The translations under genes were made by a program, and so were the position numbers. Under the pieces are notes generated by a model. The model saw only the letters and a list, made by a program, of their open reading frames with translations, searched no databases and had not been told where the DNA came from. From Lactiplantibacillus songbeiensis (GTDB lineage Bacteria; Bacillota; Bacilli; Lactobacillales; Lactobacillaceae), in contig NZ_BJDL01000006.1 of assembly GCF_005405125.1 (NCBI RefSeq), positions 1 through 64,000 on the forward strand: 64,000 nt of DNA, written 5' to 3'. Below are positions 2,175 to 49,510 of the stretch, piece by piece. The stretch's first letter is position 1, and each line of letters opens with the position of its first letter.

Positions 2175-3092
2175 CTAGTTAGTTAATTGTTCGATCTTAA
2201 TTAGGGGTAAAATTTCATCAATCTTGGCACGGGTCGCAATGTCTTCTGAGAAGGCGGTAGCGGAGCCACAAGCTAAGCCGTAACGGAAACTTTCAACCGC
2301 ATCATGCGTCTTAGCAAAGGTCCCAACAAACCCACCAATCATCGAATCACCAGCACCAACAGAGTTAATCACGTGACCCTTAGGTGCGGGGCTGAAGTAA
2401 ACCTGGTCTGGTGTGATGAGTAAGCCGCCATCGCCAGCCATTGAGATTAGCACGTGCTTGGCACCTTCAGCTAACATCCGTTGACCGGCCGCAATGATAT
2501 CGGCTTGGCTGTTAAACGTCGTGTGGTAATAAGCAGCTAGCTCATGATTGTTAGGTTTAACGACCAATGGTTTGCTTGGTAAGGTCTTTTTCAAGGCTTC
2601 ACCAGTGGTATCAATCACGAAGTTTGCGCCAGCGGCTTCAACCTTTTGAATAATATCAAAGTAGAAGCTATCGGGTAAACTAGGGGTCAAACTACCAGAC
2701 ATCACAACCACATCATCGGGCGTCAAGTTAGCGAGTTCTTGGTAGAAGGCGTCAACTTCACTGGCAGTAATGTCAGGGCCCGCACCGTTTAATTCGGTTT
2801 CTTGTTCGGCATGGATCTTAACATTGATCCGCGTATCATCAGCGATCTTAGTAAACCGGCAGTTTAAGCCTTTTGCTTTTAAAGCCTCACTGACAAAAGT
2901 TCCGGTGAAGCCGCCAACGAACCCTAAGGCCACGTTAGGTTGTTCAAGATCATTGAGAATCTGTGACACGTTGATGCCTTTACCACCAGGTAATTTAGCG
3001 GTGTGGGCTAGGCGGTTAACACTGCCTAAAGTCATTTGCGGTAGTTGGACCACGTAGTCAATCGCGGGATTGACGGTAATGGTGTAAATCAT
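2175..3092 (-). CDS. fruK: 1-phosphofructokinase
   Basis: Cytosolic PfkB-family kinase converting fructose-1-phosphate plus ATP to fructose-1,6-bisphosphate, linking FruA import to glycolysis. The family signatures are present: GGKGINVSQ near residue 37 (substrate and Mg contact) and the C-terminal NSVGAGDSM anion-hole and catalytic-Asp motif near residue 247. At 305 residues it is full length. The start ATG overlaps the fruR stop by four bases, so translation is coupled. The neighbours and the DeoR-type regulator favour 1-phosphofructokinase over tagatose-6-phosphate kinase. Confidence 0.95.
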   Translation of the reverse strand: MIYTITVNPAIDYVVQLPQMTLGSVNRLAHTAKLPGGKGINVSQILNDLEQPNVALGFVGGFTGTFVSEALKAKGLNCRFTKIADDTRINVKIHAEQETELNGAGPDITASEVDAFYQELANLTPDDVVVMSGSLTPSLPDSFYFDIIQKVEAAGANFVIDTTGEALKKTLPSKPLVVKPNNHELAAYYHTTFNSQADIIAAGQRMLAEGAKHVLISMAGDGGLLITPDQVYFSPAPKGHVINSVGAGDSMIGGFVGTFAKTHDAVESFRYGLACGSATAFSEDIATRAKIDEILPLIKIEQLTN

Positions 3093-3847
3093 GAGTTCTT
3101 TACCTCCTGAATCGTAGTTAATGGTTGATATTGTTCGGCCAGACTCGGCGTTAATTGGTCAGTCACGATGGTAGCACTGCTCAAGTCGCCGACCCGCGCA
3201 AAGGAAACGTGGTCGAATTTTGAATTGTCAGCCAAAATGAAGCTTTCTTCACTTTGCGCAATGGCTGTTTTTTTAACGATCGCTTCATCTGGGTCGGGGG
3301 TGGTCAACCCAAACTTGGGATGGACCCCGTTGATACCAAGAAAAACCTTGTTGAACCGATATTCTTGTAGTGATTTGACGGCTTCCGGACCGATAACGGC
3401 TTTGGTGACATTCTTGAGATTGCCACCAAGCAAGTAAGTCTTAATGCCCATGTCCGCTAAGACAGAAGCATGGACGACGCCGTTAGTAACGATGCGCAAG
3501 TTGTAGCCGGGGTTTAGATGTGGAATCATCGCGAGCGTGGAAGTCCCCGCATCGAGATAGATGACATCGTCAACTTGAATATTGGCGACAGCTTGTTGTG
3601 CAATCCGGTCTTTAGCATCAACATTACGCGAAACCTTATCATTCATGGCGGGTTCTTCTTGGAGCGAATTCATATACTTAGCGCCGCCATGAACGCGTAG
3701 TAATTCGCCTTGTTCCTCTAACTGTTGTAAATCGCGGCGAGCCGTTGATTCTGAACAATTAGTTTTGGAACAAATATCTTTGATTTTAATAATGCCCTTG
3801 AAACGGATCGTATTTAAAATGTACTGTTGACGTTCTTCTGTAAGCAC
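3089..3847 (-). CDS. fruR: DeoR-family fructose operon regulator
   Basis: Transcriptional repressor of the fru operon. The N terminus holds a DeoR winged helix-turn-helix (about 2-57, with SESTARRDLQQLEEQGELLR) and the rest is the DeoRC sugar-phosphate sensor domain (DAGTSTLAMIPHL, ADNSKFD). A GTG at 3847 is chosen as start because GGAGGG lies 8 bases upstream; a longer frame to 3877 has its first ATG upstream of this ribosome site, so it is unlikely. It is the first gene of the operon and is therefore autoregulated through the repeats at 3887-3931. The inducer is expected to be fructose-1-phosphate, from family knowledge. Confidence 0.92.
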   Translation of the reverse strand: MLTEERQQYILNTIRFKGIIKIKDICSKTNCSESTARRDLQQLEEQGELLRVHGGAKYMNSLQEEPAMNDKVSRNVDAKDRIAQQAVANIQVDDVIYLDAGTSTLAMIPHLNPGYNLRIVTNGVVHASVLADMGIKTYLLGGNLKNVTKAVIGPEAVKSLQEYRFNKVFLGINGVHPKFGLTTPDPDEAIVKKTAIAQSEESFILADNSKFDHVSFARVGDLSSATIVTDQLTPSLAEQYQPLTTIQEVKNS

Positions 3848-13021: not shown

Positions 13022-13109
13022 AGGAGAGTACAGGATTTGAACCTGCGCGCCGGTATTAGCCGGTTCGCCGGATTTCGAGTCCGGTGCATTACCACTCTGC
13101 CAACTCTCC
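13022..13109 (-). tRNA. tRNA-Ser(CGA)
   Basis: A complete class II cloverleaf on the minus strand. The acceptor stem is GGAGAGT with ACTCTCC, the anticodon arm is CCGGA-CTCGAAA-TCCGG giving anticodon CGA (reads UCG), the long variable arm has a CCGG/CCGG helix, and the T loop is TTCAAAT. No CCA is encoded, so RNase Z-type processing is expected. The discriminator base would be U, where serine tRNAs usually carry G. Confidence 0.95.
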
Positions 13110-25977: not shown

Positions 25978-26249
25978 ATCTTTTCAGTCGTTGGGTGCCG
26001 ATTGGGTATTAATTGGTTTATGTCGATCTATCAATATTACAATCATTTATTAGTCGAAACGGTTAGCTATTAATTGTCGAAAGCGCTGATTTCAGGTACG
26101 CTGGTAACAGTGTTGTTTAGGTAGTCCAAATAACTAACCTAGACGTCATCGCAGATAAATAAATCGATGTCAACTAGCTAGCAACAACAGGTGGGCTTTA
26201 CATTCAGTCTAAAGGAACCACAATTGATTTATTTATGAGTTTGGTGCTA

Positions 26250-26397
26250 GTTGGCTTAAATTGCCACTCTGGTTGGTCCGACGTTAATTAACGGATATTA
26301 AGAAATTAACGCTTGATTACTTTCAGTCCAGCATTTTAGGAACCAACTGGCAGGCAGCAATTTCAACTAGTACCAGGCGTATTTATTTAGAATACTC
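26250..26397 (+). repeat. Core-less copy of the dispersed intergenic repeat
   Basis: Both ends resemble the ends of the larger repeat at 49131-49510: CCACTCTGGTTGG at 26263-26275 recurs at 49146-49158, and AACCAACTG...CAGGC...CAATTT...ACCA-GCGT at 26341-26380 recurs at 49456-49492. The 125-nt structured core is absent, the sequence passing from CTCTGGTTGG straight to TCCGACGTTA. The rest of the 491-base spacer (25978-26249) shows no gene; a weak cre-like AAAGCGCT lies near 26090. Confidence 0.6.
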
Positions 26398-37187: not shown

Positions 37188-37205
37188 GCTTTTGAAAAAT
37201 TAACA

Positions 37206-37330
37206 TTGGGCGGGCCAACATTGGTTCAGCGGGGTCATTTGACTAAATCGGTGATTTTCCGATTTAGTCAATGCCCGGCTTGCGAGACCGTATGGCGGCT
37301 TGTAGACGTGGCCATCACGTTTCTGCCCAA
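37206..37330 (-). repeat. Dispersed structured element, copy 2 (minus orientation)
   Basis: 125 nt between rseP and proS. On the minus strand: outer pairing TTGGGC/GCCCAA, palindrome ACGTG-ATGGC-CACGT, core ACGGTCTCGCAAGCCGGGC, and a perfect 13-bp hairpin (37239-37271 region; arms TTGACTAAATCGG/CCGATTTAGTCAA, loop AAAATCA). It aligns along its length with 49157-49281. It points against the flanking genes and carries no T-box features for proS. The minus strand also holds an unlikely 66-residue frame. Confidence 0.75.
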
Positions 37331-37387
37331 CTAGAGTCGTAATCAGAATGATATTAAAATTGGAACAATTAAGGAGAAGATTTGTAG

Positions 37388-49130: not shown

Positions 49131-49510
49131 TGTGGTATTTACTTACCACTCTGGTTGGCCCAGAATCGGCTGGAACGTGGTGGCCACGTTTTCGAGCCAC
49201 AGAGCGGTCTCGAAAGCCGGGCTTTATCTAAGTCGAAAACCACGACTAAGATAAACGACACCACTGAGCCAATTCTGGTCCGCCCGTCGTTAGCAACCGG
49301 TTATCGATTAATAAACGATTATTTTTTCAACAGTTACCGTAGCTGTTGTCGTTGGCTGGTAGTACGAGTAGTTTTCTTGGACTTTAAGGTCAAGGTCAGT
49401 TTGGAAGACCGAGCTTTGGGTTCAAAATGGCCCACGGTGTTCCGATATTTCTAGAAACCAACTGTACAGGCGACAATTTTATAGCACCAAGCGTGATTAT
49501 TTTAAGAAAG
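49131..49510 (+). repeat. Large dispersed intergenic repeat containing the structured element, copy 1
   Basis: Most of the 575-base rbfA-truB spacer. Its two ends recur at 26250-26397. The core 49157-49281 (125 nt) folds as: outer stem 49157-49171 with 49267-49281 (13 of 15 pairs), palindrome AACGTGG-TGG-CCACGTT at 49174-49190, CGG/CCG core hairpin around TCTCGAAAG, and hairpin 49224-49254 (11 of 12 pairs, loop AAAACCA). A decayed second core-like segment lies at 49391-49445. The plus-strand frame here (49155-49454) is not considered a gene. Confidence 0.75.

Follow-up and report, generated by a model that had tools for sequence, protein, structure and literature searches.

The 125-nt structured sequence that occurs twice in the window, i.e., the whole 64,000-nt stretch of Lactiplantibacillus songbeiensis DNA analysed here, is part of a folded module of about 153 nt. 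This module belongs to a family of MITE-like mobile elements, which are characterized by terminal inverted repeats (TIRs), target duplications (TSDs), and a short length without an internal transposase gene. Throughout the family, base pairing is kept while the stem sequences are replaced. The reading to which we lean, with a confidence that is evenly balanced, is that the unit is the structured end module of short non-autonomous transposons and that its fold is selected during propagation. It is favoured because the opposed modules of the sample all have the same direction, because in the common type they lie just inside the TIRs, and because their orientation to host genes is random.

The two copies of the window had been reported, in a preliminary description made from the window alone, as homologous over their full 125 nt, copy 1 lying on the minus strand at 37206-37330 and copy 2 on the plus strand at 49157-49281. 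Alignment confirms the homology but not a base-for-base match, since gaps of 10 nt and 2 nt are required. The compensated arm changes between the copies (A-T/G-C, A-T/T-A, and G-C/A-T) are found as described, and so is the site at which an A·A mismatch becomes A-T in copy 1. For both copies and both strands, folding is far below that of shuffled sequences (z -5.1 to -6.4). The features recognized in the window are the following.

37200-37342, minus strand: module A, copy 1 (nhmmer 117.8 bits; R2 covariance model 74.6 bits, E 7.8e-18)
49143-49293, plus strand: module A, copy 2, with intact fold (R2 156.5 bits, E 6.3e-40)
49294-49346, no strand: linker of element 2, from module A to the clear core of module B (assigned by its position between the modules)
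49312-49470, minus strand: module B of element 2, degenerate and inverted with respect to module A (R2 E 9.9e-5)
49483-49494, minus strand: right terminal inverted repeat of element 2, AGCACCAAGCGT (exact match)
26237-26380, plus strand: third element, with TIRs and linker kept and both folded modules missing (assigned by terminal repeats and sequence)
26227-26236, no strand: left target duplication of the third element, ATTTATTTAT (9 of 10 positions identical to 26381-26390)
26381-26390, no strand: right target duplication of the third element, ATTTATTTAG (pairs with 26227-26236)

Copy 1 is degenerate: it has lost part of P1, the outer helix of the fold, and no longer forms many of the pairs typical of the family. 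Its canonical fold is on the plus strand of the window, that of copy 2 on the minus strand. The rseP-proS site occupied by copy 1 is uninserted in 19 of 21 genomes of the genus, and the genome of L. dongliensis (G004) holds an internally deleted derivative there. Element 2 has a degenerate left TIR, and the clear core of its module B extends over 49347-49460 (module-B profile, E 8.5e-22). At the site of G004 that is orthologous to element 2 (49143), a reading by eye indicates that the end sequences are kept and both modules are absent. The terminal repeats of the third element are located at 26237-26254 (plus) and 26363-26380 (minus), with 3 mismatches each.

The layout of the full element emerges when 14 modules are aligned with their surroundings. 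It runs from a TIR beginning with ACGCTTGGTGCTAGTTGG through module A, some 65 bp of linker, and an inverted and divergent module B to a second TIR. A complete element of this common type measures about 400 bp, its TIRs about 18-29 bp, and its target duplication about 8 bp. Strong modules number 60 in 464 kb of the window genome, and a 29-mer of the TIR, with up to 3 mismatches allowed, is found at 81 places in the genome, compared with 0 for the control. In 857 kb from two genomes, 35 TIR-bounded elements were found and 34 kept; 21 of the 34 are 378-407 bp long and 13 are shorter (116-314 bp), so that they have no room for a transposase gene. Target duplications of 7-12 bp accompany 18 of these 34 elements (8 bp in 8 of them), against a mean of 0.69 and a maximum of 4 in 500 shuffles of the flanks, and the other 16 have no clear duplication. 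One pair of filled and empty sites is clean: the filled site is at C3:82694-83083 of L. dongliensis, with TTAATTA on both sides, and the empty one is on contig C18 of the window genome (G000).

The preliminary description had regarded the 125-nt sequence as an independent unit. It has indeed spread as an independent repeat, but for the common type a free-standing 125-nt element is ruled out, since an inverted module B lies close by (median gap of 68 bp between matches) and module A is thus one of two. Refutation by a match to a known IS or MITE had also been allowed for: the elements are MITE-like by their TIRs and TSDs, and a comparison made by description only assigns them to no named MITE family. 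Other types exist. In the 857-kb sample, a recognisable left TIR is absent from 31 A1 modules with a score of at least 90. Genome G001 has 88 module matches and 0 matches to the common-type TIR; of the 22 modules in its 20 fetched stretches, most belong to another type, in which an inverted module C comes after module A2, and one (L200) is of the A1-B type.

Structurally, the module is a three-way junction formed by the outer helix P1, a short P2, and two arms, P3 and P4, the latter of which contains a conserved U·U mismatch. Among 190 copies of module A from fetched loci, the five highest scores in about 11,000 column pairs all belong to predicted base pairs. When the changes of each column are redistributed on the tree as a null (60 simulations, cut-off E<0.05), 5 of the 53 predicted pairs are singly significant and the other 48 are not, many of them because their columns hardly vary. 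A second alignment, fitted to the covariance model, extends across genera and comprises 81 matches from 35 loci, Lactiplantibacillus included, in 78 distinct rows, three antisense self-matches being among them. In these 78 rows, pairing is kept in 94.0% of the pair cells, and a change on both sides is seen in 45 of 47 pairs. Cells with a double change number 791 as compared to 203 after shuffling, and pairing falls to 46% when the partner is slid by one column. The conserved pairing that had been claimed from the two window copies is therefore upheld by the five best column pairs and by the doubly changed pairs, and the covariation that had been proposed for checking in a larger alignment is significant under the tree null.

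The fold itself is retained at a distance. Twenty modules from other species were folded singly, and most of them gave the same three-way junction with quite different letters in the stems. The U·U mismatch is kept in 63 of 67 copies of module B, in 23 of 24 of module C, and in 185 of 190 of module A, for which it reads as A·A on the opposite strand. A script applied to 57 rows from other loci recovered a P4 carrying the U·U in 34, a different or unclear arm in 17, and no hairpin in 6; the module at L230:2844 has a fully paired P4 without U·U. In G001, three A2 modules (L195, L202, and L206) carry an extra stretch of about 150 nt inside arm P4, similar in sequence in all three, which has apparently spread as a subfamily.

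As for known RNA families, no Rfam entry matches either 125-nt copy of the window at gathering thresholds. A further comparison with Rfam at E<=5, covering four module-A loci and four A2/C loci, gave no match to a module at the gathering score, and the single sub-threshold overlap with a module reaches 17.3 bits where 37 are needed. The earlier statement that the element was not recognised as a named RNA family stands at these thresholds. At gathering scores, the window gives a single Rfam match, a tRNA gene at 13022-13109. Near two copies of the module there are T-box leaders (RF00230), at L009:222-456 with 122 bits and at L008:1906-2153 with 88.4 bits, the latter being below the gathering score of 93.

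Modules located within 700 bp of each other are arranged in a very regular way. In the window genome and G004, the order +- is seen 44 times, -- 2 times, ++ once, and -+ 0 times, with a shared site counted twice. In the loci of other species the corresponding numbers are 16, 2, 2, and 0, and some of these loci were chosen because neighbouring matches were listed, which bears on their orientation counts. All opposed close pairs (60 of 60) have the same direction; hence, the folds point away from each other, and a canonical module lies near the 3′ end of each DNA strand.

With respect to host genes, strong modules are intergenic in 103 of 107 cases according to simple ORF-rule gene calls, while 2 overlap an ORF and 2 lie at an edge. 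The 94 convergent gaps hold 21 of them, the 93 divergent gaps 19, and the 414 tandem gaps 63, and in tandem gaps a strand preference towards host genes is absent (31 vs 32). Intergenic placement is what would be expected if the elements were useful to the host and every copy were kept as a regulator or terminator of the neighbouring gene. This explanation is very improbable, as the elements are patchy among species, modules are lost at the same site in sister species, and no orientation is preferred. The one full element that was scanned has no promoter-like or terminator-like site; for this reason, and given the missing orientation bias, a terminator or gene-linked regulatory RNA was rejected as the sole explanation.

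Some loci contain genes between modules or units. G150 contains two copies of a unit of roughly 850 bp (L227:83-936 and 2378-3228), each having two opposed modules and a 365-bp centre that is similar in both; they flank a 432-aa membrane-protein-like ORF. In G063, at L239:1411-2036, two opposed modules flank an 86-aa ORF which is antitoxin-like by eye and for which Pfam gave no match. At this locus, runs of A and T enclose one P1, as in a two-way terminator.

The modules might also be functional RNAs carried by the element. In this case, canonical-strand transcripts would run outward from the linker or arise by putative read-through, and the fold would stop, process, or stabilise them, either reducing the harm to neighbouring genes or serving the element. 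Such an explanation is possible, though we give it less than even weight. Conserved core letters round the junction and the kept U·U mismatch are consistent with it, as is the terminator-like P1 of G063, and the canonical strand is the one that folds lower for 46 of the 57 rows taken from other species. Wobble changes provide a further indication: branch events of module A include 131 canonical-strand G-U against 72 A-C (p=4e-5), and those of module C 28 against 13 (p=0.028), the difference being not significant for module B (76 vs 61). However, rows from other species have no strand preference (84 canonical G-U vs 103 A-C cells), which counts against the canonical-strand claim drawn from module A, and G·T pairs occur in single-stranded DNA too. 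The lack of both an orientation bias towards genes and of promoter-like or terminator-like sites in the scanned element likewise argues against this explanation.

The history of individual copies bears on whether selection is needed at all. Counted as parsimony events, pairs were kept 42 times and broken 24 times on internal branches, compared with 89 kept and 113 broken on terminal branches (p=0.007). The rarer breaking of pairs on internal branches fits selection on the copies that keep multiplying. Resident copies at orthologous sites have an excess of double complementary changes, namely, 11 in 14 pairs of module A against about 0.74 by chance and 5 in 8 pairs of module B against about 1.05, and five of these double changes sit in one orthologous pair. 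The excess is not predicted by selection at transposition alone, and gene conversion or arm copying probably contributes to it.

It can accordingly be asked whether pairing is kept entirely without selection, by DNA-level correction in which one arm of a hairpin templates the other, or gene conversion acts between copies, so that double changes arise in place. Besides the excess of doubles in resident copies, this would account for pair-breaking single changes not being rare among them (11 double, 15 kept, and 21 broken in module A) and for the loss of modules at their bases, as DNA hairpins tend to be lost. It is nevertheless quite unlikely to be the whole explanation: the conserved unpaired core letters and the stronger keeping of pairs on internal branches are left unexplained, and the U·U mismatch, which arm copying would heal, persists.

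If the modules are structured transposon ends, the elements would be moved in trans by a putative transposase. During propagation, the folded module may be read at each 3′ end, as a single strand or as an extruded cruciform, and copies with a good fold would multiply as a result of this reading. After insertion, copies would then decay, often via deletion at the base of the folded module. The sampled sequence, 1.28 Mb with overlaps counted, gave 168 TIR-like matches; 162 of them have module-like letters inside, and the other 6 look like remnants, a cut match, or chance. No transposase with matching ends was recognised among the inner neighbours of these 168 matches, ORFs being listed at three loci. 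An autonomous IS with the same ends, suggested by contig starts that carry equal TIR letters, found no support in the seven loci checked, at each of which the TIR was followed by module A. Inspection by eye for a transposase at the near-identical copies of G068 and G150 and at an opposed pair spaced by 2 kb in G151 showed ordinary-looking genes.

A more far-reaching proposal is that of a new class of elements in the Lactobacillaceae, whose three-way-junction ends of about 150 nt would be read as single strands, symmetric at both 3′ ends like the terminal repeats of parvoviruses, with the U·U as a recognition mark; alternatively, the class would be a mobile structured RNA spreading as paired outward copies. 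We consider this proposal rather unlikely. The inverted terminal repeats of parvoviruses are three-armed folds of about 150 nt, one at either end of the small DNA. The present modules share this size, shape, and placement; however, neither a replication protein nor a linear form is known here, and the TIRs and TSDs point instead to a transposase-like insertion.

Several families of bacterial repeats are comparable. REP/REPIN sequences are paired inverted short hairpin units, dispersed in hundreds of copies and moved in trans by RAYT transposases. Paired inverted units in hundreds of copies are common to both families; however, the folds are larger here and TSDs are present, whereas, to our knowledge, REP/REPIN hairpins make none. 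The bcr1-type repeats of Bacillus cereus are mobile repeats of about 150 bp with a predicted structure, and judged by description only they resemble the present module as a structured mobile unit of that size in Bacillota.

The BOX, RUP, and SPRITE repeats of Streptococcus pneumoniae are described as short, intergenic, rich in secondary structure, patchy among relatives, and suspected of effects at the RNA level (PMC3049150). BOX and RUP are said to possess a TIR and to make a TSD, and BOX is built of boxA-B-C modules (PMC3049150). The present elements are like BOX and RUP, as far as that text describes them, in being structured, intergenic, provided with TIR and TSD, and patchy in relatives; they differ from that description in having two inverted three-way-junction modules inside their ends and a core motif and U·U shared across genera. 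QMITE2 of Coxiella burnetii is described as small, intergenic, and foldable, with a TIR and direct repeats of 7-9 bp; it has one core of 113-145 bp between the TIRs and is discussed among MITEs with foldable transcripts (PMC10969869). Here, in contrast to QMITE2 as portrayed there, the interior is made of two homologous folded modules and not of one core.

On the evidence of these descriptions, the kind of element is already known from BOX/RUP repeats and from MITEs with foldable transcripts. Its unusual features are the two homologous three-way-junction modules, each conserved separately, and the depth of covariation across genera. A partial survey of the open-licence PMC literature found no description of this repeat family. 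It is worthy of attention because it reaches about 240 copies in a single genome, has relatives in 9 of the 40 genera sampled from its family, and possesses a very clear conserved fold without an Rfam family. It also offers a system for asking why small bacterial mobile repeats are structured, as it comprises hundreds of natural variants, filled and empty sites in sister species, and two distinct modules per element.

The search for further copies that had been suggested in the preliminary description was productive. With up to 2 mismatches, the module pattern matches 242 places in the 3.03-Mb window genome (101 forward and 141 reverse), compared with 0 for the reversed pattern. The strict pattern is present in 6 of 21 Lactiplantibacillus genomes, with 242, 185, 88, 37, 18, and 6 copies, and at up to 3 mismatches it is present in 8 of 397 genomes of the family Lactobacillaceae. 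Among at least 54 stretches, the species records that carry it include L. dongliensis, L. nangangensis, L. daoliensis, and L. pingfangensis. When the best candidates of each genome (at most 20) are scored with a covariance model made from 33 copies, members are identified in 28 of 151 family genomes and in 9 of 40 genera, that of the window included. In a search of low sensitivity, with R2 applied to the best 7 candidates per genome across 398 genomes of Bacilli, the window's own genome is the sole match.

Regarding mobile replicons, the exact pattern has 0 matches in viral contigs. BLAST gave no match for copy 1 of module A in plasmids and phages, nor for the full element and three further queries in plasmids. 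A fourth further query matched a plasmid of L. pentosus (pBGM48-1), where R2 confirms a complete module (E 4.4e-23) at a place without a listed gene. The repeat of G068 has partial BLAST matches in 5 plasmid records and in no phage; R2 finds no module on the paracasei and hordei plasmid stretches, the repeat piece of L. paracasei plasmid p3 included. This piece, of the G068 type (L262:705-1565), directly adjoins an IS5 family transposase gene, as if an IS5-family IS had landed in the repeat.

The repeats matter for genome annotation and probably for assembly. Contigs C8, C12, C17, C18, C20, and C23 of the window genome each begin no more than about 400 bp from the end of an element, which indicates that the repeats probably break the assembly.
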